Below, piece after piece: positions 3,705 through 21,073 of a stretch of 21,073 bases of DNA (within the stretch, counting starts at the first letter, position 1; each line of letters starts with the position of its first letter). The stretch spans positions 1-21,073 of the IMG/VR virus record IMGVR_UViG_3300010935_000028. One strand, given 5' to 3'. The translations under genes were made by a program, and so were the position numbers. The stretch comes from a virus. The notes under the pieces were generated by a model. It saw only the letters and a list, made by a program, of their open reading frames with translations, was not told where the DNA came from and made no database searches.

Positions 3705-4652
3705 TTATGAAGTTGTGCAGTCAGCGACCATGCCGTTCGCTGCTTCATTTTTAGAGCAAAGTGTAAGCTCTGTAACAACTTGGCGAGTTGTGTTGTCGCC
3801 AGTTTTCGCCAATGCTACGTTCTTCGTGCCACGTAGGGATGCAACTTCCCACATGTTGTCTTGCATGATGAACACGTCGCGTGAACGGTTTTCGCGTGAC
3901 GGCATGAACTCTACGCTACCCCATGGTGTGACGTACACAGCCAAAGACTTGATAACACGCTCATCGCCAGCTTGGACGTTTGAACGCTGGTTGTTGTTAC
4001 CAGTGAAGCCCAAAGCTACATTCATTTGGAATGCAGACAAGTACACTGTGTCTGGCTTACCACCAGCAACCCAGATTGACTGCATAACAGTGTCAAAGTT
4101 TGCTTGTGAGAAAGCAGCTTGCGTGCCGTCTGTACGTGCGTCTGTACCGTCTCCGGTTGCGTCCGCGCCGCCAGAACCAGCTACTGTGTTTGTTGTCAGC
4201 CAAGCTGGTGCGCCTGCAAGTTCGCGTGCAGTTGTAGAGTTACCAGCCGCACGTGCATTGTTGGCAAACAAAGCCTTTTCAATGTCGAGCTTTTGCTCTT
4301 TTGCGATTTTAAGAGTTTGATAAGCAATCTCTTTTGCGCGACCTGCGTTATCAACATTATCGTCGGAGTCAGATACGACTACGGCGTTTTTGAAGATTTG
4401 CGTGTAGTTGCCCAAACGAGTTGTTGCAGCACGAGCTTCAGCAGTAGTTGCGTCGCCTTCAATGTGAGCATTCGCAGCAGAAGCGCGAAGTGAATCAGTC
4501 TGCCACTCAACAAGAGTGTTTTTCGCGGACTTCTTTGCAGCCTTGCTGTAGAACGGTGTCTCCTCTGGGGAGATATTGTGGATCACATTGGATAGGTCTT
4601 CACGGATGCCTACGGAATCATAGGTATCGAATGTGTTTGATGGTTGTGCCAT
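3705..4652 (-). CDS. Major capsid protein, SU10-like (DUF5309)
   Basis: A 315-residue protein that forms the icosahedral head shell. The N-terminus reads NTFDTYDSVGIREDLSNVIH then ISPEETPFYSKAAKKSA, the conserved opening of the DUF5309/SU10-type capsid family, followed by VEWQTDSLRA and the central helix region EIAYQTLKIAKEQKLDIEKA. A later segment (WEVASLRGTKNVALAKTGDN) has the pattern of the family's C-terminal domain. Length and place right after a scaffold gene support the call. The start has AAAGGA about 9 bases upstream. No maturation protease is visible next to it. A terminator hairpin lies 9 bases past its stop, as expected for the most abundant virion protein. Confidence 0.9.
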   Translation of the reverse strand: MAQPSNTFDTYDSVGIREDLSNVIHNISPEETPFYSKAAKKSAKNTLVEWQTDSLRASAANAHIEGDATTAEARAATTRLGNYTQIFKNAVVVSDSDDNVDNAGRAKEIAYQTLKIAKEQKLDIEKALFANNARAAGNSTTARELAGAPAWLTTNTVAGSGGADATGDGTDARTDGTQAAFSQANFDTVMQSIWVAGGKPDTVYLSAFQMNVALGFTGNNNQRSNVQAGDERVIKSLAVYVTPWGSVEFMPSRENRSRDVFIMQDNMWEVASLRGTKNVALAKTGDNTTRQVVTELTLCSKNEAANGMVADCTTS

Positions 4653-4673: not shown

Positions 4674-5642
4674 TTACTGATTTAAGATCAAGCCCAATGC
4701 GTCGTCGATTGAGCCAGTTTTCTGCAAGCGCGATTGCGCTTTTTTACGAGTTGCTCCAGAACTATCTTGCCGCTTCTTCGCACCAGCTTTTACCATCGGT
4801 CGGGCCTTCTGACCCTTGGATTGTGTTGTTTTGCGCTTGGCCACTAACTCTCGATATTTACGTGCGTCATTCAACGCCCGCACATATCTCGCGTCGGATA
4901 CGTGAGCCATCTCTTCCGCCGTGAAGCCATACTCCATGCCAGCACTCATTATGTCGCCCTTCAATTTCTCACCCTTTTCAGGGTCAGCAATCTCAGGAAT
5001 GTACTGTTTCAAAACCTCAGCTTGCTCTTGCAGATACGACTGATGCGCCTGCGATTGCTGCTGAATTTGGTTTTGCTGCACTTGTTGCATTTGGAAGATA
5101 TTTTGGTCGTATTGCGCCTTGCTCTCGTCATACTTGAGCTTTTCTTCCATGTACCCAATCGGGTCACTTTCAAACAGCTCTCGTGATGGCGGGGTTGGGG
5201 CTTGCAAACCACCGTTCTGCGCTTGCTGGTGCAACTGCAAGAGTTGTTGCTGTTGCTGTTGCAATGCGGCTGCCTGCTGTTCGATTTGCTTTCGCGCCTC
5301 GGCAGCTTCTTGGAACCGCTTATTAATTGCCGCTTGTCCCGCAGCAGATTGCTTCAACTGATCCAGTGTCCAATTCTCTTCTTTTCCGTCAACTTTAACG
5401 GGGATGAGATTGGTGTCTTCAGCAGCTTCTACTAGGTCTTCGTCGTCAATTTCGACATCATCATAATCGTCGGATGCCTCAACGTCATCTTGATCCTCGT
5501 CAGCAGCTTCAACTTCATCAGACTGATCGTCATCAGGCTCAATCATTGAGTCCACAGCTTCATCAAAATTATCTCCGCCAGAAGTTTCTTCTGACGTTGC
5601 CAGCAGGCTTTCTGCGGCTTGTTCTAGGGTAGTCGATTCCAT
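4674..5642 (-). CDS. Head scaffolding protein
   Basis: A 322-residue protein with the layout of a phage scaffold. It has a very acidic N-terminus (residues about 25-80, rich in Asp/Glu), then VDGKEENWTLDQLKQ, a long Gln-rich coiled coil (about 110-215, including a run of six Gln), and a basic C-terminus (KKRQDSSGATRKKAQSRLQK) that would bind the capsid protein inner face. It has no visible protease motif. It lies immediately upstream of the capsid gene. Scaffold proteins guide procapsid assembly and then leave. The Gln tract is coded by repeated CAG/CAA triplets. Confidence 0.85.
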   Translation of the reverse strand: MESTTLEQAAESLLATSEETSGGDNFDEAVDSMIEPDDDQSDEVEAADEDQDDVEASDDYDDVEIDDEDLVEAAEDTNLIPVKVDGKEENWTLDQLKQSAAGQAAINKRFQEAAEARKQIEQQAAALQQQQQQLLQLHQQAQNGGLQAPTPPSRELFESDPIGYMEEKLKYDESKAQYDQNIFQMQQVQQNQIQQQSQAHQSYLQEQAEVLKQYIPEIADPEKGEKLKGDIMSAGMEYGFTAEEMAHVSDARYVRALNDARKYRELVAKRKTTQSKGQKARPMVKAGAKKRQDSSGATRKKAQSRLQKTGSIDDALGLILNQ

Positions 5643-5647
5643 CGGTA

Positions 5648-5896
5648 CTACGTCCTTTTCTTGCGATCCAAAAGTGTCTCTGCTGCAAGTGCGGCGTCGA
5701 GGGTCACTTCGATCTGGTTAAGCGCACGGATCATCGCGTGCGCCTCTTCACGGGCTGCTACGTCAGCAGCCCCACTGCTTGCGAAAACCTGCATTTGGTT
5801 CTCGCGCACAATCTGCATGAACTGCTTAAATGCAGTATCGCCTTTTAAGCGACGGGCCTCTTCGGCCTCTATGCGTATCTCTGTTTTATTGGCCAT
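5648..5896 (-). CDS. Small helical protein upstream of scaffold
   Basis: An 82-residue protein predicted to be almost all helix, rich in Ala, Glu and Arg. The ATG at 5894-5896 is chosen because AAGG is 7 bases upstream; the longer reading to 5932 overlaps the previous gene by 23 bases. Key segments are EAEEARRLKGDTAFKQFM and AREEAHAMIRALNQIE, a pattern (short helix, F..., a long charged helix carrying a conserved R-A-L) seen in unnamed small proteins near capsid genes of many phages. No catalytic residues are seen. A role in head assembly is likely only by position. Confidence 0.6.
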   Translation of the reverse strand: MANKTEIRIEAEEARRLKGDTAFKQFMQIVRENQMQVFASSGAADVAAREEAHAMIRALNQIEVTLDAALAAETLLDRKKRT

Positions 5897-5909
5897 TAGA
5901 GCCTTTTCC

Positions 5910-6107
5910 TTAGTTTCGCATTGCGTCCTCAAGCAGCAGAAGTTCCAATCTCTGGATGCTCATACGCATGTCTTGGAGGACTTCCCTGTCTGTCTGCTGC
6001 ACTTGGATGTTTGCAACTTTGATCGACAAGTCATGTGTCTGTTTTAAGTTCCATCCCGCTAAACCTAGAACCACTGCCATCAGGCCGAGGATTATTTGCT
6101 TTTCCAT
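5910..6107 (-). CDS. Small single-span membrane protein within the head module
   Basis: A 65-residue protein with a hydrophobic N-terminal helix at about residues 5-20 (IILGLMAVVLGLAGW) and a leucine-rich amphipathic helix after it (LQDMRMSIQRLELLLLED). The ATG overlaps the stop of the gene before it as TGATG; a GTG nine bases upstream is possible but not needed. A membrane protein between spike fibre and scaffold genes is not expected. It could be a second holin-type protein, a virion membrane-binding peptide or an unrelated insertion. The family is not recognised. Confidence 0.6.
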   Translation of the reverse strand: MEKQIILGLMAVVLGLAGWNLKQTHDLSIKVANIQVQQTDREVLQDMRMSIQRLELLLLEDAMRN

Positions 6108-6439
6108 CAGAGCCACACACGCTTAGGTGCATCAGGTGTAAAACCGTGTGATACATCAAGAGCCTCGACAGCATCACGCATAGTATCGCTAGATAGGCGG
6201 ATGTTTACATGCCAACCGTCTAATGCTTCCATCTCAGGATACTCCATACCATCGTCATCTGTGATGGTAACGCCTGTGGCCTCATGTAAGACCCCTACAA
6301 CGTCGATGGAGTAGTCTGCTGTGTTACTCACAAACTCACCTTCCTCATCGTAGAAGGCAGACAACATTGAGGGCATAGACGCCTCAGATACCAGCTTGAG
6401 ATAAAAGTCAGTCTTTGGTGCTTCTACTTCGTCTATCAT
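6107..6439 (-). CDS. Hypothetical protein coupled to the head spike fibre
   Basis: A 110-residue acidic soluble protein starting inside the spike-fibre stop (ATGA overlap). It contains YSIDVVGVLHEATGVTITDD and a GWHVNIRLSS segment near residues 75-84, and ends TPDAPKRVWL. Proteins of this length with the same order (a short repeatable N-terminal part, a D-x-V-G beta turn, then GWHVN(L/I)R) are found next to fibre or spike genes in other tailed phages. A chaperone or accessory factor for the spike is a reasonable guess; nothing shows it directly. Confidence 0.6.
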   Translation of the reverse strand: MIDEVEAPKTDFYLKLVSEASMPSMLSAFYDEEGEFVSNTADYSIDVVGVLHEATGVTITDDDGMEYPEMEALDGWHVNIRLSSDTMRDAVEALDVSHGFTPDAPKRVWL

Positions 6440-8010
6440 GTTGATGCCTCCGCAATACCTACGTCACCTAAGTCATCAGACCACATACGGAACTGTCCGA
6501 TTGTACCCATGAAGACGTTACCAAGCTCTAGGTCAGTAGATGACAAGTCAGGGAGAATCGTAGGGGTTGTGTTGGCTGTCAGGAGTGTACCTTCGTTCGC
6601 ACCATTGATGAACGTAGAGCCGTGACGTGATGCAAGGTTAAACGGTACGTTAGTGTCAGGGGTGTAGGCATTGGGTATTCCATTGACGAAATCGTTACCA
6701 GAGGTTGTTTCTCTCTGTAGGAAGGTTGGTTGCCCTGACCTAGTACCTGATGTACTAACCCTAGCAAAGATGTAGTTAGGGCCGTTTAGTGTCCAATCGT
6801 AAGGTTGAACTTCATTTATATTGTCACCATCAGCATACGACATCTTGCCATCTATCTGGATAGACATGTTAGTGTTGTCATAAGGCAGGTTAGCCGCAGG
6901 GACTGTTAGTGTCTCAGCAGCACGAGTAGCTGAAGCACCCGCTGTTGGGATGTAGCTTGATGGGGTTGCGCCAGCTTCTAGTTGTGCATTTGTGACTGCA
7001 CCTGAGACGGTCAATGTCAGAGTTCCCGCTGCTGGGGTAAACGTCAAACTAACTCGATTGTTTTCTCCCGTACCTGTTCCAACCAAAGGTCCAACAGTAG
7101 ATGCGCCAGATAAAGTAACTGTGCCTGTCCCTGTGAAACTGAGGGTATTCTCTACAGCAGATACAGTAGCACTTTGAGTAGATAGTGTGCCAGAGTTCAA
7201 CAACAAGTTAGTCCTAGCTTCACTCTCGTGGAGGAGGCCTTCGTTAACCCAAGCAGAGCCATTGTAGATGTGATGGCCTGTCCGAGGAGCATAGACAGCA
7301 GCAGAGGTCGTTGGGACGTAGCTGCTAGCAGTGTCAGGGTTGTTTACCATGCCACCGAGGTCACTGCGGAACATGTGTGCGCCGTAAAGCTCAAGTTCAC
7401 CTATTTGAGAAGCAGGGCTGGAGGCATTGACCTTCCCAATTATAAAGAACAGGCCAGTGTCATTAGCTGCAACAGTAGCTTCAAATGAAACTAACGCCCA
7501 AGTGGAGGTTACAGCTAGATTGGCCTCTGGTACGTTGTTGGGTGTCTGTCCACGACCATTTGTTGCGAACGTAATAGAAGTTATGGTGTCACTGCGAACC
7601 CATGCGGCAAGAGTTACTTTGTCTCCTGCTTTAACAGAAACTGTGGACAAGTTGTAAAGGTGTGAGCTTCCAGTAGAGAAGTTAACTGTGGACGCTGTAT
7701 TAGCTACACCGTTAGGGCCAACTGCGGCGTTATCAACAACAACAACTGAGCTTTTATTCCACGTACTAAAGGTGTTTGACTTTGTAAGGTTGTTATGCGG
7801 ACGCCACTTAAGCAAGCCATCACTATCAACCATAGTTGCATTAGTGGAAGCTGTGTGAGTTATAGCAGAGGCGAACGTAGTAGAGGCCCCGACTTTGCGG
7901 TAATAACTATTCTTAAAGTCAAACACCAATGCAGGGTCGGAACCTAACACTGCATAAGTACTCGATGAACGCAATTGCGCCGTCAAGGAAAGGCTAAGAC
8001 CAATTTGCAT
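6436..8010 (-). CDS. Head spike fibre (GTA Rcc01080-like role)
   Basis: A 524-residue beta-rich protein. The N-terminus has DPALVFDFKNSYYRK followed by ATMVDSDGLLKW, the motif typical of phage head-spike and tail-appendage proteins. There follow two carbohydrate-binding-like beta-sandwich stretches (about 75-215 with VSVKAGDKVTLAAWVR, and about 265-365 with NAQLEAGATPSSYIPTAGAS) and a lectin/LamG-like end (GNVFMGTIGQFRMWSDDLGD). It follows the spike base gene by 12 bases and has GAGG before its ATG. In the R. capsulatus gene-transfer agent the equivalent pair sits on head vertices and binds the host capsule. Assignment to spike rather than tail is from gene order. Confidence 0.72.
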   Translation of the reverse strand: MQIGLSLSLTAQLRSSSTYAVLGSDPALVFDFKNSYYRKVGASTTFASAITHTASTNATMVDSDGLLKWRPHNNLTKSNTFSTWNKSSVVVVDNAAVGPNGVANTASTVNFSTGSSHLYNLSTVSVKAGDKVTLAAWVRSDTITSITFATNGRGQTPNNVPEANLAVTSTWALVSFEATVAANDTGLFFIIGKVNASSPASQIGELELYGAHMFRSDLGGMVNNPDTASSYVPTTSAAVYAPRTGHHIYNGSAWVNEGLLHESEARTNLLLNSGTLSTQSATVSAVENTLSFTGTGTVTLSGASTVGPLVGTGTGENNRVSLTFTPAAGTLTLTVSGAVTNAQLEAGATPSSYIPTAGASATRAAETLTVPAANLPYDNTNMSIQIDGKMSYADGDNINEVQPYDWTLNGPNYIFARVSTSGTRSGQPTFLQRETTSGNDFVNGIPNAYTPDTNVPFNLASRHGSTFINGANEGTLLTANTTPTILPDLSSTDLELGNVFMGTIGQFRMWSDDLGDVGIAEAST

Positions 8011-8022
8011 AGTGACCTCTTT

Positions 8023-8265
8023 TTAATACAAGGCGGCAATATTTGACGCGGTGGTTCCGGTTGCAAAAACACGCTTGACCGATACAGGCAATATTGAGCC
8101 TGCGACAACGCCATTTAAAGTAACAGTTGAGCCAGCGGCAGTAATAACCTTCAAATTGCCAGAGCCGCCAATAAATAGACCGCGTGTAGGTTCAATGTCA
8201 GCAGTGTCGCTGGTGGTAACAGACGCCATGTCGTGCGCTGGTTCAGTTTTTCCGATATTAGCCAT
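8023..8265 (-). CDS. Head spike base protein (Rcc01079 family)
   Basis: An 80-residue protein that closely follows the known spike base family named after GTA protein Rcc01079. It has VTTSDTADIEPTRGLFIGG (residues about 16-34), a short beta strand GNLKVITAAGSTVTL, then VVAGSILPVSVKRV and a terminal ATGTTASNIAALY. In the gene-transfer agent this small protein sits on capsid vertices and holds the spike fibre. Here it is just behind the portal gene and ahead of a large beta-rich fibre gene, which supports the same role. The start has AAAGGA 7 bases upstream and a promoter candidate ahead of that. Confidence 0.85.
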   Translation of the reverse strand: MANIGKTEPAHDMASVTTSDTADIEPTRGLFIGGSGNLKVITAAGSTVTLNGVVAGSILPVSVKRVFATGTTASNIAALY

Positions 8266-8291
8266 TGTCGTATCCTTTTAAAGTCTAGAAA

Positions 8292-8320
8292 TATATAACA
8301 CGAAGCCGAGTTTATGGCAA
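8292..8320 (-). promoter_or_regulatory. Sigma70-like promoter ahead of the head-spike genes
   Basis: On the minus strand TTGCCA (8315-8320) is separated by exactly 17 bases from TATATA (8292-8297), 5/6 and 4/6 matches to the sigma70 consensus. The -35 box overlaps the end of the portal gene. Transcription would start near 8285, giving a leader of about 20 bases that holds the AAAGGA site of the spike base gene. An extra promoter here could raise expression of spikes, scaffold and capsid above the portal. Confidence 0.5.
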
Positions 8321-10474
8321 TTGAGCCATGTCGCCAATCATGCGGACCTTGTCCTGTTCAGCTTTTACACGAGCCACATCAACCGTTGTACCATATTCGC
8401 CATAAATCTTTGCCGCGTCTACGAGCAAATCCTGCGCCATTTGATCCCGCTTGAGATCATCGTCGGCTGCTGCCTTCTGCGCGTCCAACTGCATTTTCAT
8501 TTGGTCAGACTGCATTTTGACTTGAGCCTTCATTTGCTCTGCCTGCAAGAACGCAGTGTTTGGATCGGCTGGTTGGCCTTGCTGCTCTTGAGCCTGCTGC
8601 TGCATTTGCAGCATTTGAGCCTCAATCTCAGGTGTAATTGGCGCAAAGTAACGGTCAGCGTTTCTGATGCCAGAAATTGCCAACTGGTCAGCCAGCGTAT
8701 TGCGGATATTGGTCATGCTGACCAAGCCGTTTTGCGGGCCGTATGTTTGGTAAACCATCGTCTGCATTTGCAGTGCTTGGTTTAGCGCCATAATCTTTTC
8801 TTCTTCGCGGCCAGTGCCAAGTCCAACATTGATGCTCACGTCAAAGGATGAATCCCAGACACGAGGGTCAACGGGAACAAAGGCACCGTTCATCCGCATC
8901 ATCTGCTCTTCGTCAACATTCTTGTTCATCAAACGCAGCATAATGCCGAACAAGTCACGCATACCATCCGCAAGGTTGCGAACCATAACCTCAACCTGAC
9001 CAGCAGCAGACTGCACAGTGGCCTGTACAGCCGCTTTGGTCGTAGACTGCATCGCTGATGGATCAAGGCCCATAGAGGCTCTGGAGACGCCTGTTTTGGT
9101 CTCTACGAGGCCATCAAGGTAAGTCAGCGCACCAAGTGTCTGGCCCGCAGTAAATGGCACGGACAATTCCTGTACAGAACCCGGCGATCTCATGCGCACG
9201 ATTGCTCCGATTTCGTTGTTAAGCACGTCATCAACATTGACGGCGCCCTCAACAATGCCAAGGCGTGGGTTGTTGGTCATGGCCACATTATCAAGGATTG
9301 AGCGCAGCACAGATGTAGCTGCGTCTTGGTCATCCATAACAATCTCGGCCAGTGAGCGTCCATAGAACGTGTGCGGCTCTGGATCGACCTCAAACTTTGC
9401 AAATGGAATTTCATCGCATGGCTCGTAATCTAGCATTTCGTATGACGTGCCACCGCATGTGATCTTGTGCAAAACTGGAACGCCAGTGCCATCAACGTCA
9501 ATGCGCATGTAGGCTTCTGTCACGGCAACATTACGCATGGATGGGTCCTGCTCGTCCTCATCGGACGTGTCCATTCCGTAGCCTTGGCGCTCGTAAACCT
9601 CTGATTCCGTCATGTCAGAACCGCTCTCGAAGCTGTCTAAATTTGTGACAACCTCTGGGTCATAGCCCATCGCAATCAAGTCGCCAGCGCGCATGTCAGT
9701 GCGGTGCGCAACAACGTAGGCATCGGCAAGGCTTCTAGCGTCACGGTTGATAAAGAACTCTTCTGGCGGCACACTCTCAATGCACAACTCGCCACTTTCT
9801 TTTTGGCGGCTCAACTTTACGCTGTGAACGGGCATTTCCATTTCCATGCCCATTTCGTCCATCTCAATGGTTATTTCCATGCTGTGTTCCAGCACGGTCA
9901 CGTCATCATCATCAATCAGGTAAGTGTATTCGTCATCTGACAAGTCAGTGAACGTGTAAATCTCGGCCTCTGGATACGTCATCCAGTATGCCTTCACGAT
10001 ACCCTGCTTTTTGATTAGCGCATCTTGGAAGGCGTCATTCATCACACGATACCCATTTAGACGGGTAAATTCGTGGTGCATAAACTCGGTGGCCTGCTCG
10101 GCCATTGCCACGTCTTCTGGGCCGTGCGGCACAAACTCAACAGGCTTTGCTGTGCTGAGGAAAATACGCATCAGGCTTGGCTTCACCGCACGTACAGTAT
10201 CCCGTACCTTTGTGGCTACAACCTTGCTGCGGCCATCCTCGTATCCAAGGTCGACTTCGCCATCATAATAACGCTGCGCCTTGATGCGGTCATCGCTGAT
10301 TTCGCTCTCAACAAAGTCTACCGCGTCTGAAATTGCGTCTTGGACAATGCCCTCAACCTCGGTGCGTGATTTTGGTTTAAACTCGCTGTCAGCTTTGACT
10401 TCTTCGATGTCAGCCATTTCGACCTCACCGCCAGAAACCTCAAGCATTTCTTCGATCATATCTTCGGGTTCCAT
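8312..10474 (-). CDS. Portal protein (P22-like)
   Basis: A 720-residue protein, within the size range of P22-type portals (P22 gp1 is 725). The ATG at 10472-10474 (MEPEDMIEEML) is preferred, with AAGGACGG upstream; the longer reading to 10537 would overlap the preceding gene by 50 bases. Features include an acidic start, AQRYYDGEVDLGYEDGRS and the wing/stem region EFMHHEFTRLNGYRVMNDAF followed by KKQGIVKAYW. A central SLAEIVMDDQDAATSVLRS is followed by TGVSRASMGLDPSAMQSTTK, typical of the portal fold. A Gln/Met-rich C-terminal coiled coil (about 620-690) matches the barrel helices of P22. As a dodecamer it is the DNA gate of the head. Confidence 0.9.
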   Translation of the reverse strand: MEPEDMIEEMLEVSGGEVEMADIEEVKADSEFKPKSRTEVEGIVQDAISDAVDFVESEISDDRIKAQRYYDGEVDLGYEDGRSKVVATKVRDTVRAVKPSLMRIFLSTAKPVEFVPHGPEDVAMAEQATEFMHHEFTRLNGYRVMNDAFQDALIKKQGIVKAYWMTYPEAEIYTFTDLSDDEYTYLIDDDDVTVLEHSMEITIEMDEMGMEMEMPVHSVKLSRQKESGELCIESVPPEEFFINRDARSLADAYVVAHRTDMRAGDLIAMGYDPEVVTNLDSFESGSDMTESEVYERQGYGMDTSDEDEQDPSMRNVAVTEAYMRIDVDGTGVPVLHKITCGGTSYEMLDYEPCDEIPFAKFEVDPEPHTFYGRSLAEIVMDDQDAATSVLRSILDNVAMTNNPRLGIVEGAVNVDDVLNNEIGAIVRMRSPGSVQELSVPFTAGQTLGALTYLDGLVETKTGVSRASMGLDPSAMQSTTKAAVQATVQSAAGQVEVMVRNLADGMRDLFGIMLRLMNKNVDEEQMMRMNGAFVPVDPRVWDSSFDVSINVGLGTGREEEKIMALNQALQMQTMVYQTYGPQNGLVSMTNIRNTLADQLAISGIRNADRYFAPITPEIEAQMLQMQQQAQEQQGQPADPNTAFLQAEQMKAQVKMQSDQMKMQLDAQKAAADDDLKRDQMAQDLLVDAAKIYGEYGTTVDVARVKAEQDKVRMIGDMAQLP

Positions 10475-10487
10475 GTGTGTCCGTCCT

Positions 10488-12131
10488 TTATTGGATGTTG
10501 CCAGCAGTGGCCTGTGTCGCTCCACGCGCCATTGCATTGGCCGCTTCTTGCAGCACCTTAAACGCTTCTGGGCTTTTTTGCATTACCTCATCGGCGCGGC
10601 CAGACGATATAATTTGCTGAAGCGTTCTTGCTCGCTTCTCTAAATCCATTTCCCGAACTGCGCGAAGAGCTGTCGTACCCGCAACCTCTATACCAGCCCC
10701 CACCAAAGCGCCCAACGGTCCTCCGCCAGCAAGTCCACCGACAATCGCACCCGTAGCCATTCCGCCCGCTGCTGGGGCCGTGCGCCCACCGCTGGGTGAG
10801 AATCCGAGATAACTTAAGCCAGCCAAAACTCGGCCAATTGGTGAGCCTTGTTGAATCTGAGAAAGCAGTGCAATTTCATCCTTACTAAATCCACGACGCT
10901 TCTTTTTGTTTCTCAATATAGTTCCAATTTGCGTCTTCAAACCAGATTCAAACCCGCCAGCGTACCCACCCTCTTTGGCGGTTTCAATTATGTCAGATAT
11001 GGCTTCAGTCTTTCTCATTCTGGACCACAATCCACGAGCTTTCTTGAATGTTTCATCGACGCCCTTGACGGAACCTTTGGTTATCTGATCTGGGCCTATG
11101 TTTGAAATGAAATCATCAATTCCGTCAATAATCATCATCGCAGCTTGCTGCTCGGCCTTGTCTGTAACCTTTCCAGCGGGGACATTGGCTAGCTGACGGA
11201 TGCCTTCTAAATCATCAATACCAATAGACTTGCCAAGTTTGCTCACATCCTGCATTGCGTCAAGAACAGCAGAGGACGATGGTTTCAGTCTTGAGAATAT
11301 TTCGGGACTAACCCCGCCAGAGACTTTATTAATTGTTTGCGCGACAAAATCATCAAACGCTTCTTTTGAAATTGTTGCGCCACTCTTACGCGCCTCATCA
11401 TAAAGTGCGCTTGCTTGAGCCTTTAATTGGCTAACTGATTGACCACCCTCAGCCACCGCTTTTGAGGCTTTTCCAGATAAATACTTCTCAAAGCTAGACC
11501 CTACCATGTCGGACGCTTTCTTAAACCCAGCGCCGAACATGCCGCCCAATGCGGCACCTGTGACAGCAGATTTTGCCCGATCCTCAACGCCACCTTCTCC
11601 AGAAAGAAAGCCAGAAGCTGCTCCGTAGCCTAATCCAGCAATAGCAGCCTTACCAAGCGTCGCCATGCTGCCGACTGGTAGAGCTGCTGCCCCAGCAATT
11701 TCAGATACTGTAGAGGCAATTGGCGCTTCTGATTCGAATTGACCGATGCGTGAGCGCTCACGCTCAAGCTCTTGACCGTATACGTCGCCTATGTTTCTTT
11801 CGTCGCCCATAATCTTCTTCACAGCAGCAGTACCGCCAGCAACGATTTCATCTCCAGCGCCAAGCGTTAGACCCTGAAGTACGTTTCGGCCAACACCCAT
11901 AGCATTGCCCCCAGTGGTCGCACTAGGCTGGTCAAATTTAAGCCCCCTTCCCTTCTGGTTCGCTAATTTTAACAAATCAAGAGATTGAGACTTGTCTAAT
12001 CCGACCTGCTTCGCGAAGCTAATGATAGGCATGTCAGAATAAAACTTACTATGGAATCCCATAACCAGCTCTGCGTCGCTTAGATCGCCATACTGAGGAA
12101 ACTTCTTTCTAATCGAATCAATGCCCTGCAT
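10488..12131 (-). CDS. DNA ejection (internal virion) protein
   Basis: A 547-residue protein. Its N-terminus (DSIRKKFPQYGDLSDAELV, then FHSKFYSDMPIISFAKQVGL) is a module seen at the start of many phage DNA-transfer proteins. The middle holds glycine/alanine-rich hydrophobic stretches (AAIAGLGYGAASGFLSGEGG; GAALGGMFGAGF; GAIVGGLAGGGPLGALVGAG) able to insert into membrane, separated by long amphipathic helices. This fits ejected proteins such as P22 gp20/gp16 or T7 gp16, which leave the head with the DNA and help build a channel through the envelope. It follows the transglycosylase gene by 10 bases. Which homologue it matches cannot be told here. Confidence 0.75.
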   Translation of the reverse strand: MQGIDSIRKKFPQYGDLSDAELVMGFHSKFYSDMPIISFAKQVGLDKSQSLDLLKLANQKGRGLKFDQPSATTGGNAMGVGRNVLQGLTLGAGDEIVAGGTAAVKKIMGDERNIGDVYGQELERERSRIGQFESEAPIASTVSEIAGAAALPVGSMATLGKAAIAGLGYGAASGFLSGEGGVEDRAKSAVTGAALGGMFGAGFKKASDMVGSSFEKYLSGKASKAVAEGGQSVSQLKAQASALYDEARKSGATISKEAFDDFVAQTINKVSGGVSPEIFSRLKPSSSAVLDAMQDVSKLGKSIGIDDLEGIRQLANVPAGKVTDKAEQQAAMMIIDGIDDFISNIGPDQITKGSVKGVDETFKKARGLWSRMRKTEAISDIIETAKEGGYAGGFESGLKTQIGTILRNKKKRRGFSKDEIALLSQIQQGSPIGRVLAGLSYLGFSPSGGRTAPAAGGMATGAIVGGLAGGGPLGALVGAGIEVAGTTALRAVREMDLEKRARTLQQIISSGRADEVMQKSPEAFKVLQEAANAMARGATQATAGNIQ

Positions 12132-17930: not shown

Positions 17931-18347
17931 TCACTCTGGCTGGGTAGGCCAAGAAACGCTATGCGGGAAGCTGTCTTGCTGTGGAATATCTAAAAGGAGC
18001 TGTCGATATGCAGTCCATTCAGCTTGCTTTTCAGCCGTTAAATCAGCCCAGCGCAAAGGGTTGGAGACCAGAGGGTCAACCACTGCAACCAAGATGTGAT
18101 CACGATCCGCACGAACACGAGCCGCAGCCTGCGCGTCTAGTTCAGCTTGTGTCGGGGCTACATACGCAGTGAAGTTGCCACCGATCAAAGCCATAACTGC
18201 ATCGTTATCAATAGTCGTATCGGTGTCAGAGGGGTCTACCGTGTACGGTATCCACCCGTAGTCTGGGTGATTAATTTCTACGTCCATGCGCTGGTTGTCA
18301 GACTGTAGTGACTGTGCATTGCGCACTTCTGCTATCGTGATGCTCAT
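17931..18347 (-). CDS. Tail fibre assembly chaperone, downstream copy
   Basis: A 138-residue protein. The ATG at 18345-18347 is chosen because it overlaps the fibre stop as TAATG; a longer reading would run into the fibre gene. N-terminal part: NHPDYGWIPYTVDPSDTDTT and AVMALIGGNFTAYVAPTQAE. C-terminal part (residues about 100-138) has DRDHILVAVVDPLVSNP, then WTAYRQLLLDIPQQDSFPHS and VSWPTQPE, the signature of the phage tail assembly chaperone family PF16778. Such proteins help fibres fold and are encoded right after the fibre. A second copy (19960-20412) shares this C-terminus. Confidence 0.8.
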   Translation of the reverse strand: MSITIAEVRNAQSLQSDNQRMDVEINHPDYGWIPYTVDPSDTDTTIDNDAVMALIGGNFTAYVAPTQAELDAQAAARVRADRDHILVAVVDPLVSNPLRWADLTAEKQAEWTAYRQLLLDIPQQDSFPHSVSWPTQPE

Positions 18348-19306
18348 TAGGAAATCCTCAAAAATACTGTGCCTCGACCGTAAGTAGAGGTGGAGCTGTA
18401 GGTAATAGAACCCATGGCTCTCCAAGTGCCTGACATGGTAGTGTCTCCACGAGATAATTGACTTAGGTTTGCTGAGTACACAGTGTTATTGCTCGTAAGG
18501 CTCTGAGCCGCATTTACACCACCACTTTGTAGTGTTGAGCCAGACACAGTAGCGCCAGAGGCAAGTGATGTCCCATTGCGAATTAGGAAAGCGTACGTCC
18601 CAACAGCAGAAAATGATGTAGGTGGGGTGTACTGGGTAGTAATGTAGCCTGCGCCATTAGTCAGTTGGTTGTTGTTAGTAGGAACGCTGGCTGACGTTAT
18701 GAAACCGCTGTCGTTTGATATCTGGCTTGTAGCTGTCGGGATGCTAGATATTGCAGAAGCCTGAGAAGAGGTAAGTAGAGAGTAGCCGGAGGAAAAGGAT
18801 AGAGACAGCGTTCCACTTGATGTTATTGGCGAACCAGAAACTGAAAAGCCCGTAGGAGCAGATAAGCCAACGCTTGTGACGGTCCCGCCACTTTCACCAG
18901 CTACAAGGTTGTCAATCTGCGTCTGGATAGATGAAGTCACGCCGTCTAGGTAGTTGATTTCTGCCGTAGTTGCCGTAACACCGTCCAGCTTGTTCATTTC
19001 AAGCGTAGAGACCGTAACCCCGTCCAAGATGTTCAGCTCGCCAGTAGTAGCTGTAACACCGTCCAAGATGTTCAGCTCAACGGTAGTGGCTGTAACGCCG
19101 TCCAAAATGTTGAACTCCGCGACGCTGGCCGTAACCGTAGAACCGCCAATCTGAAGTGCGGACAGGTTGGGCGAAATTGATGTCGTTCCGTCCAGCAGGT
19201 TATCCAAGCTGTCGAGGTTCGTGTTTAGCTTATCGCCCCATGAGCTGTCGCTTGCACCGACCTCTGGCTTTACAAGGCTATATGTTGTGGTGGTACTATC
19301 GGCCAT
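18347..19306 (-). CDS. Tail fibre with 13-residue repeats
   Basis: A 319-residue protein. The ATG at 19304-19306 is preferred because GGAGG lies 7 bases ahead and it overlaps the previous stop (TAATG). Residues about 1-45 ([34 protein letters not shown]) are a common marine phage fibre N-terminus. They are followed by five tandem copies of a 13-residue unit ([12 protein letters not shown]-like), a T/S/G-rich region ([48 protein letters not shown]) and a beta-rich C-terminus ([17 protein letters not shown]). The repeats suggest a trimeric shaft, and the C-terminus probably contacts the host. It lies between two chaperone-type genes. Confidence 0.8.
18936..19130 (-). repeat. Five tandem 39-bp repeats in the fibre shaft
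   Basis: Units begin at 18936, 18975, 19014, 19053 and 19092, each exactly 39 bp, with the core GTAACACCGTCCAAGATGTT (plus-strand form). They stay in frame and encode a 13-residue unit ending LDGVTATT. Copies differ mostly at silent positions and at a few residues, so they are old enough to have diverged but could still recombine. Confidence 0.9.
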
Positions 19307-19944
19307 TATGCCGCCTCCGTCCAAATGCTGGAAGCCGACACCGCGTCGGTCCAAATGCTAGAAGCCGACACAGCGTCGGCCCAATCTGTTGTTTCAGTTG
19401 CGGCATCTTCCCACTTTTTGCGTCCAAAAGCAACGGTAGTGCAGCTTGCAGAGACAATTGACGCTCCAAGCAGGATTGCATTGGACCCACTAGCCACAGT
19501 AAGTCCTGCTGCTATGGCCAAACTGCCTTTAGCAGTTAGTGTGCCTGACTGTGCCGATGTGGACGTTGCCGTAATGCTTGACTTGCCGCTCTTGGCGCCA
19601 TCAACAGACCCAACCAAAGTGGATGTCGCCGTCACTGTGGACTGGCCCTTTGCTACAATTGTAGCCGAGGCAGACTGTGATAGAGCGCTGGGGATATTTG
19701 CCCCCTGCGACTCAATAGAAGAAGCAACTTGCGTCGCAGAACAAGATATAGTCGCCGCTGCGTTTGCCTGCACTGTGGCGGCTGACTGTTGCGACAGCGA
19801 AGCTGAAATGTCAGCGGTAGATGGATTTTGCGCGACAACACTTGCGACAGCGGAGACGCTAGATGTTGCAGTAATTGCAACAGTTAGCGCCACCCCACCG
19901 TCATCAGCAAGTGGACTTGAAGCTAGTGGTGAAAATCCAAGCAT
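19306..19944 (-). CDS. Ser/Ala/Thr-rich repetitive fibre-like protein
   Basis: A 212-residue protein with very low complexity: N-terminal [20 protein letters not shown], then many imperfect beta-type repeats of about 25 residues ([55 protein letters not shown]). At the C-terminus there is a spaced run of [19 protein letters not shown] type. It looks like a stiff, beta-rich filament or adhesin tip rather than an enzyme. It lies between a chaperone gene and the repeat fibre and starts with a weak ribosome site. It is related in style to fibre proteins that begin with FGSxPL-like motifs. Confidence 0.6.
19319..19378 (-). repeat. Two 30-bp tandem repeats at the end of the 212-residue gene
   Basis: Bases 19319-19348 and 19349-19378 match at 28 of 30 positions (differences at CTGG/CTAG and ACCG/ACAG). 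They stay in frame and encode [10 protein letters not shown]-type units. A diverged third copy continues leftward in the protein (WADAV). Confidence 0.9.
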
Positions 19945-19959
19945 GGCCTAAGACCCCTC

Positions 19960-20412
19960 TTACGGTTTAGTGGGCCACGTTACGCTGTACGGAAAGCCCG
20001 ATTGATCTGTCACGTCACGAAGTGCCTGACGGTAATCTAACTGCGCCTGTGCAGCAGTACGATCCGAGAGACACCACCAGTCTGTTTCAGATAGCAATGT
20101 GTCTCGCTCTAGCCTGATACGCATCTCTTCATTGGCATCAAACTCAGCTACTTCTTCTGTGGTCTTATCAGTAACAGTCCAGCCCAGTGTCCAGACACCC
20201 TCAACTAAAGAAGGCTGTGTGTCCTGCGAAAGCACCTGTGTGCGCTGAGTAAAGCTAGGTTCACTTGCTACAACTACAGTCTCAACTCCGTAGCTGGATA
20301 GAACCTCGTCGGGTATTTGCTTTGGGAATGAAGTGTTGGGGTTGTCACGGCGTAGTTGCCCTACGGAGTAGGGGTATGTTTCTACACTACCGTTTGTAAT
20401 TTTGACGTACAT
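19960..20412 (-). CDS. Tail fibre assembly chaperone, upstream copy
   Basis: A 150-residue protein. N-terminal part: NGSVETYPYSVGQLRRDNPN and TSFPKQIPDEVLSSYGV, a typical phage N-terminus for fibre-associated proteins. The middle is VWTLGWTVTDKTTEEVAEFD. The C-terminus is SETDWWCLSDR with LDYRQALRDVTDQSGFPYS and VTWPTKP, again the PF16778-type end. Its start has AAAGGAA upstream. It probably serves the fibre or adhesin gene just before it. Its N-terminal half differs from the copy at 17931-18347, so the two chaperones likely serve different fibres. Confidence 0.8.
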   Translation of the reverse strand: MYVKITNGSVETYPYSVGQLRRDNPNTSFPKQIPDEVLSSYGVETVVVASEPSFTQRTQVLSQDTQPSLVEGVWTLGWTVTDKTTEEVAEFDANEEMRIRLERDTLLSETDWWCLSDRTAAQAQLDYRQALRDVTDQSGFPYSVTWPTKP

Positions 20413-20426
20413 TTATGTTTTCCTTT

Positions 20427-21073
20427 TTAGGCTTTAGGCATTCTAAAGGCTAGTGCAAAGTTAGTACCAATAGTTATAGAAGCATAACCTTTGCCCCACG
20501 TAGCTGCGGAAAAAGAGAAGTCGGTTTCGCTGGTTTCAAGTTGCGTGTTGCCAAACATAACCTCGATCTGAGACGGGTCCTCGTCGTCCTCCCTAGCAGA
20601 AGAGGTATAAGAACCGTTTAAACGGGAGTCCATTGTACTAGAAGTGTACACCCTTGCATTGTTCATAGAGCAGCCTGTAGCATACATGATGTAACTATCT
20701 CCGCTGTATGACCCTCCACTAAGAGGTAGCCCTGTAAATGTGCTGCCGCTTCCAGATTGTGTATGGCCAGCTCTGCTTCTAGCATATATCACTGTGTTAC
20801 CCCAAGAGGCGGTAGGTGCAGCTGCACCTGAGAACACACCCGCAACAAACGCAGAACTAACGTTATTTGTGTAAGGCTGATTTATCTGTGTCTCTGTACC
20901 ATCAGCAATCTTGTAATGTATGTAAACATTGCTATTATAGCCATCCCCACTAGCGTTTACATATAAACCCAAACCTTGTGTATAACCAGTGTAGCTCAAT
21001 GAGCGGTTAGTGTTAAAGTCTCCAAGATAAGTGATAATAACAATAACGTCACCTGCTTGAACAAAGTCTCTAC
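20427..21073 (-). CDS. Tail fibre/adhesin C-terminal region, cut by right window edge
   Basis: The frame is open to the window edge (214 codons visible). A TTG at 20997-20999 could be read as a start, but coding continues upstream without a stop as RDFVQAGDVIVIITYLGDFN, so the gene almost surely begins outside. The sequence is glycine/serine/tyrosine-rich and beta-type: GYNSNVYIHYKIADGTETQI, AAPTASWGNTVIYARSRAGH, FTGLPLSGGSYSGDSYIMYA. It ends in QLETSETDFSFSAATWGKGY and ALAFRMPKA. The QAGD(V/L)-V-V start of the visible part is a domain often seen in tail fibres of marine phages. It lies ahead of a chaperone gene. Confidence 0.7.
   Translation of the reverse strand, partial: RDFVQAGDVIVIITYLGDFNTNRSLSYTGYTQGLGLYVNASGDGYNSNVYIHYKIADGTETQINQPYTNNVSSAFVAGVFSGAAAPTASWGNTVIYARSRAGHTQSGSGSTFTGLPLSGGSYSGDSYIMYATGCSMNNARVYTSSTMDSRLNGSYTSSAREDDEDPSQIEVMFGNTQLETSETDFSFSAATWGKGYASITIGTNFALAFRMPKA

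Follow-up and report, generated by a model that had tools for sequence, protein, structure and literature searches.

The window analysed here, the whole 21,073-nt stretch of the IMG/VR record IMGVR_UViG_3300010935_000028, carries on its minus strand, in this order, tail genes, genes of internal virion proteins, the portal gene, a pair of genes of the head-spike type, small genes, the scaffold gene and the gene of the major capsid protein (Table 1). The first member of the pair encodes an 80-residue protein of the Rcc01079 (GhsA) spike base family, and the second, which begins only 12 nt further downstream, encodes a 524-residue fibre protein with a head-spike-fibre domain. The pair is thus placed between the portal and scaffold genes, with the fibre gene directly behind the base gene, exactly as a preliminary description of this DNA had reported. 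Together with a third gene of 110 codons the pair makes up a cassette, which is followed by two further small genes before the scaffold gene.

Table 1 Features of the window around the spike genes and elsewhere in the virion gene region
Feature	Position	Strand	Evidence or remark
Major capsid protein, SU10 type	3705..4652	-	PF17236 E=2.1e-83; PDB 9ny2 E=1e-46, SU10 7z45 E=1e-25
Scaffold	4674..5642	-	PHROG 3927 E=2.6e-44
94-aa gene, downstream border of the insertion	5648..5932	-	Homologue directly after the portal gene in cassette-less relatives
68-aa gene after the cassette	5910..6116	-	Seen in the window and L014; outside the common cassette
Third cassette gene, 110 aa	6107..6439	-	PHROG 18574; ATGA overlap with the fibre gene
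Head-spike fibre, 524 aa, enlarged Rcc01080/GhsB type	6436..8010	-	NF048003; sole PDB match Rcc01080
C-terminal domain of the fibre, residues 370-524, putative receptor-binding end	6439..6903	-	Predicted concanavalin/CBM/galectin-type beta-sandwich
Second, partial NF048003 domain	6916..7146	-	With QLEAGATPSSYIPT motif, also in Rcc01080
First NF048003 'phage head spike fiber' domain	7294..7794	-	Profile
Star anchor peptide I-G-L-S-L-S-L, fibre residues 3-9, predicted to fill base-pentamer pockets	7984..8004	-	Sequence
Head-spike base protein, 80 aa, Rcc01079/GhsA family	8023..8265	-	NF048002; PDB 6tb9; AlphaFold/Foldseek
46-nt leader with ribosome-binding site, portal stop to base start	8266..8311	-	Sequence; absent in cassette-less relatives
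Portal, SU10/P22 type, upstream border of the insertion	8312..10537	-	PF23899 E=2.8e-191
Tail-fibre assembly chaperone	17931..18425	-	Phage_tail_APC
Separate tail-fibre-like gene	18347..19354	-	57% identity over 164 aa to annotated Octadecabacter virus DB2 tail fibre
Second tail-fibre assembly chaperone	19960..20412	-	Phage_tail_APC

Family profiles as well as PDB matches assign both the portal and the major capsid protein to the SU10 type, so that the virus is presumably a podovirus, for which the short tail and prolate head of SU10-like phages would be expected, and not a gene transfer agent (GTA). A GTA-like virus was rejected on these two families, since PF23899 and PF17236 are both of the SU10 type and neither protein is of the RcGTA type. 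No match to tail-tube, tape-measure or sheath families was found among the window proteins searched, the record being a fragment. The phage has tail-fibre genes of its own, which lie with their chaperones at 17931-19354 and 19960-21071. By portal, Octadecabacter Antarctic DB virus 2 is the closest of the named phages (48%). It also has counterparts of the window capsid protein (70%), of a 492-aa virion protein (59%) and of the tail fibre (57% over 164 aa). The spike genes are absent between the portal and scaffold genes of DB virus 2, and this phage was unmatched when all phage records were searched with the base. The portal reading frame as listed (741 aa) overlaps the upstream 547-aa gene at 10488-10537. 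Because related portals align to the window portal only from about residue 11-52, the true portal start probably lies downstream of the listed one.

The base and fibre proteins

The 80-residue protein matches the NCBIfam model NF048002, 'spike base protein, RCAP_Rcc01079 family', with 80.3 bits against a cut-off of 28 (E=9.8e-23), which bears out the family membership proposed in the preliminary description. Consistently, phmmer searches of the PDB with the single sequence return Rcc01079 (6tb9, E=3e-6) and the spike base of phage Carin-1 (8cjz, E=3e-4), and the profile of the base family matches 6tb9 at E=2.8e-22. An AlphaFold model of the base, built on an alignment of the window and IMG/VR rows only, reaches a pLDDT of 82. 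Foldseek superimposes this model on 6tb9 with a TM score of 0.80, an rmsd of 1.4 and 40% identity and on 8cjz with a TM score of 0.74, and it gives no other matches below E 1e-3. The model thus predicts a jelly-roll fold for the base. Matches of the base profile to BP39L and to a fucose lectin were dismissed because there was no significant single stretch behind them. Pfam holds no model for either the base or the fibre protein.

Glu12 of Rcc01079, which coordinates a cation together with the capsid protein, does not recur at the aligned position of the window base, which may count against a role in a head spike. Glu8 of the window base lies one position off Glu12 when the phmmer alignment is extended without gaps, and the capsid protein of the window belongs to a different family. 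Phages of Flavobacterium, Verrucomicrobia and Edwardsiella also carry members of this base family.

The 524-residue protein matches NF048003, 'phage head spike fiber domain', with 70 bits against a cut-off of 36 (E=3.6e-19). Its only match in the PDB is Rcc01080 of 6tb9, both by phmmer (E=2e-6) and with the fibre profile (E=1.8e-12). Comparison with the GTA spike structures, by structure prediction for the base and by profile for the fibre, therefore leads for both proteins to the GTA spike, the relation that the preliminary description had drawn. At the level of sequence, chance is excluded as the source of the base and fibre family matches. The structural model of the fibre is weak overall (pLDDT 57). 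Its C-terminal part, which is mostly at 70-88, resembles CBM40, galectin and LamG-type folds in Foldseek and is read here as a lectin-type beta-sandwich only; sugar binding by this domain is plausible in general terms on the basis of the model.

The anchor peptide

The fibre begins with M-Q-I-G-L-S-L-S-L-T-A, and MQIGLSLSLTAQL presents four alternating hydrophobic residues after Met1, as expected of a star peptide that would bind to a base pentamer. In the base pentamer of RcGTA, residues 2-10 of Rcc01080 (I-A-L-G-L-G-L-G-L) take the shape of a star with five points, each hydrophobic residue occupying one pocket, and the remainder of the fibre is flexible (PMC7296036). The anchor was defined as at least three alternating hydrophobic residues within residues 2-14 of the gene after the base. 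The bases of 96 loci fall into 31 clusters at 70% identity, and 15 of these clusters show the anchor, compared with 69 of 1011 control N-termini of the same loci (Fisher p=1e-9). In a second set, drawn from bacterial genomes, the anchor is present in 14 of 28 cases against 24 of 575 controls (p=3e-11); the background rate is approximate in both comparisons because the controls are mechanically chosen reading frames.

The Cobetia phage Carin-1 is, like the phage of the window, a short-tailed marine phage. It has a structurally validated base on its capsid (gp40, 8cjz) and, like the window, an anchor-type start in the next gene. The product of this gene, gp39 (L200 32214-33368), is annotated as hypothetical and begins with MLGLGLGI. 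Because of this anchor and its position beside the validated base, gp39 is very likely to be the fibre of the Carin-1 head spike. However, Carin-1 is T7-like and its base is only 26% identical to the window base in the structural alignment, and neither gp39 nor the window fibre found the other in phage searches. The same anchor is present in Verrucomicrobia phage P8625, Edwardsiella phage ZHS, Rhodobacter phage RcapNL and Flavobacterium phage immuto. DSS3P8, Cr30 and RHph_Y25 (L008, L010 and L004) have a base and no adjacent anchored gene; their fibre may be encoded elsewhere in the genome or may be absent. At L104 8251-8334, the base is followed by a 27-aa reading frame, MGIGVGVSVDVKGGIPIMEPEPPPPPP, an anchor that carries hardly anything else.

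Many related phages have a small gene (about 40-80 aa) behind that of the base. It encodes the star anchor and then a tail, often with three short repeats, and it directly precedes a larger gene, which in several cases matches tail-fibre families. Small proteins with the star anchor and three repeats occur at L045, L054, L105, L069, L043, L335, L290 and other loci. The three-repeat score exceeds that of all 150 shuffles in 8 of 26 clusters and is not significant in many others. Repeats of the xGxxY kind pair with PQIQAAQxGDxY-type fibres, LITE-like repeats with KFSQF..VGY fibres and LLED repeats with SALTSLTG fibres. Among those read, the repeat class never disagrees with the N-terminal type of the fibre that follows, not even where the base family is the same, the classes having been set by eye after the sequences had been seen.

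The repeats and pairings, which lie outside the window, lead to a tentative proposal, to which we give slightly less than an even chance, that the base and its plug peptide form a general exchangeable vertex socket converting five to one, on which different parts can be hung, and that the small protein of the split form is a 5-to-3 symmetry adaptor. In the fused form, as in the window, RcGTA and Carin-1, the plug chain itself would be the lectin-like fibre. In the split form, the three repeats would serve as docking sites for the chains of a trimeric fibre, and the small protein would thus act as the adaptor. A further group of loci (L102, L103, L106, L108, L109, L110 and L117) has the spike-base domain in a different fused form, at the C-terminal end of a protein of 294-359 aa, and the next reading frame, of 31-39 aa, is of another type that ends in a YDVIWNI..WEE.. 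tail.

Gain, loss and exchange of the cassette

Comparison with 52 relatives, which have portals about 80-91% identical to that of the window and contigs spanning the portal to the capsid gene, places the cassette as an insertion. The spike genes are absent in 51 of them and present in one. In 50, the portal gene is directly followed by the small gene that precedes the scaffold gene, and one has a different 112-aa reading frame there. Where spike-less relatives were inspected, the stop codon of the portal gene overlaps the start codon of the gene behind it, leaving a precise empty site. In spike-bearing relatives, a leader of 45-46 nt with a ribosome-binding site, the base gene, the fibre gene and the 110-aa gene are inserted after the portal gene. 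The pair was rejected as a core part of the head operon of this phage group because relatives lack it.

Relatives of the base and fibre were collected by single-protein scans, and these scans led to further spike-bearing relatives (L014, L022, L025, L030 and L041). On the portal tree, the five spike-bearing rows require at least four gains or losses, all of them forced by well-supported branches, a count that portal recombination could inflate. Between the window and L041, DNA identity is 85% in the base gene, 87% at the start of the fibre gene and 93% in the 110-aa gene, compared with 75% in the portal gene and 78% in the scaffold gene. The greater likeness of the cassette fits a transfer that took place after the flanks had diverged, or may be due to stronger selection on the cassette. 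Because most near-identical relatives have no spike genes, the cassette seems to be an exchangeable accessory with which the phage would hold on to the sugar coat of the host.

The fibre itself is mosaic: identical anchors are followed by differing middles, and conservation returns over roughly the last 190 residues. The C-terminal part, often with the 110-aa gene behind it, is also present in phages with no base gene next to it, on fibres with other N-termini (L015, L017, L018, L029 and L035, the last of which looks T4-like from its neighbouring reading frames). The occurrence of the distal half on base-less fibres suggests that the receptor-binding end and its companion move between head fibres and other, probably tail, fibres. 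The 110-aa gene goes with this fibre end in most loci read. Because it constantly follows the fibre, its product is possibly a fibre chaperone or an accessory subunit. WD-40 matches of the 110-aa profile were dismissed, as no significant single stretch supported them.

A putative head spike and its alternatives

Taken as a whole, the base and the fibre are best explained as a capsid-vertex head spike, a reading that we regard as highly probable. Five copies of the 80-aa jelly-roll base would sit on one pentamer of the major capsid protein and hold one fibre chain by its first residues. I3, L5, L7 and L9, and probably the flanking M1 or A11, would occupy hydrophobic pockets that are equivalent to one another, as is the case in RcGTA. 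The remainder of the fibre, with its NF048003 beta-domain and its lectin-type C-terminal domain, would extend outward flexibly and bind reversibly to a surface polysaccharide of the host, in a step that precedes commitment through the tail fibres. The cassette with the 110-aa gene is detachable between the portal gene and the next head gene and has repeatedly been gained and lost, and the outer half of the fibre is exchanged with tail-type fibres of other phages. Each mechanistic step, including capsule binding, has its precedent in RcGTA (PMC7296036, PMC10218006), the homologous fibre of which binds the capsule (PMC10218006). For the phage of the window, the evidence comes from sequence, predicted fold, gene order and evolution. 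The preliminary description had proposed a head-spike pair in a short-tailed phage besides the tail fibres, and the family and fold of the base, the anchor, the position in the head operon and the separate tail fibres support this well. Because tail fibres with chaperones are encoded separately, the fibre of the head operon would be an additional device.

The Rcc01079 (GhsA)/Rcc01080 (GhsB) spike of Rhodobacter capsulatus shares with the window pair the family and fold of the base, the adjacent fibre, the N-terminal star anchor, the NF048003 domain and a QLEAGA..SS.IPT motif in the fibre. However, RcGTA has a long tail and an oblate head, and its spike genes are found at a separate locus beside capsule genes. 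Furthermore, its fibre consists of 325 aa, whereas that of the window consists of 524 aa with an extra C-terminal domain and is followed by the 110-aa gene. The E. coli kuravirus SU10 has portal and major capsid proteins of the same families as the window. In contrast, its head is undecorated, with bare pentamers in the cryo-EM map (PMC9509320). Such bare pentamers leave room for a base, and docking on this capsid type is putative. Head fibres of short-tailed phages are also represented by gp8.5 of phi29 and gp21/gp29 of crAss001. However, these attach as trimers or dimers at threefold or hexon sites and not by way of a pentameric base (PMC11476376, PMC10172136), and no sequence relation to the window was seen.

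The 524-aa protein could instead be a tail fibre or tail spike encoded within the head operon, with the 80-aa protein as a tail adaptor. PHROGs labels the base and fibre families 'tail' (PHROG 12296 and 5939), RefSeq homologues are named 'tail fiber protein', and the distal half with the 110-aa gene occurs on base-less fibres (e.g., L017, L029 and L035). However, both solved homologues of the base are located on capsids (6tb9, 8cjz), and base and star anchor go together whereas the base-less copies read have different N-termini. Furthermore, tail fibres with chaperones are encoded elsewhere in the window, and the gene is missing from near-identical relatives, an absence that an essential tail fibre would not permit. 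We therefore consider a tail function very unlikely. The label 'tail fiber protein' on spike-base homologues (PHROG 12296; RefSeq, e.g., NC_029047 and NC_055853) is probably a misannotation.

Even less likely is that the pair is a vertex cap or cement that stabilises the capsid, with a fibre without importance for the host. The base is a predicted small jelly-roll of the kind found on pentamers, and in some phages its partner is a very short peptide with an anchor, such as that of 27 aa at L104. However, the capsids of most relatives are evidently workable without the base, and a large lectin-type fibre region that is swapped between phages is the usual sign of receptor binding. Least credible is a GTA, or a direct descendant of a GTA ancestor, with a vertically inherited spike: the spike genes are homologous and the isolated phage closest by portal has Octadecabacter as its host, which is related to Rhodobacter, but the portal and capsid are of the SU10 type, the presence of the cassette is scattered over the portal tree, and the window base groups with other viral bases and not with Rhodobacterales genome copies in a base tree that is weakly supported and too short to place the window confidently relative to the GTA.

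The shared origin with the GTA that was suggested in the preliminary description thus holds for the spike genes and not for the particles, as the capsid and portal are of the SU10 type and relatives lack the cassette. Because, in addition, the base occurs in diverse phages and those relatives are nearly identical to the spike-bearing ones, horizontal transfer is a better explanation of the shared spike genes than descent of the particles from a common ancestor.

RcGTA and Carin-1 already provide examples of such head spikes, and spike homologues in R. capsulatus phages have previously been noted (PMC8601537), so that the window pair is not unprecedented. Neither the anchor rule, nor gain and loss among close relatives, nor split adaptors were found described in the open papers searched, a coverage outside which many journals lie. 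The rule of a base gene followed by an alternating-hydrophobic N-terminus finds head-spike fibres that are annotated as hypothetical or tail proteins, and the split forms give a hint at how a fivefold vertex may be matched to one or three fibre chains. Nature also provides near-identical pairs of phages with and without the genes of the putative head spike (e.g., L030/L171 and L023/L125), which make the role of a head spike beside a phage's own tail fibres directly testable.
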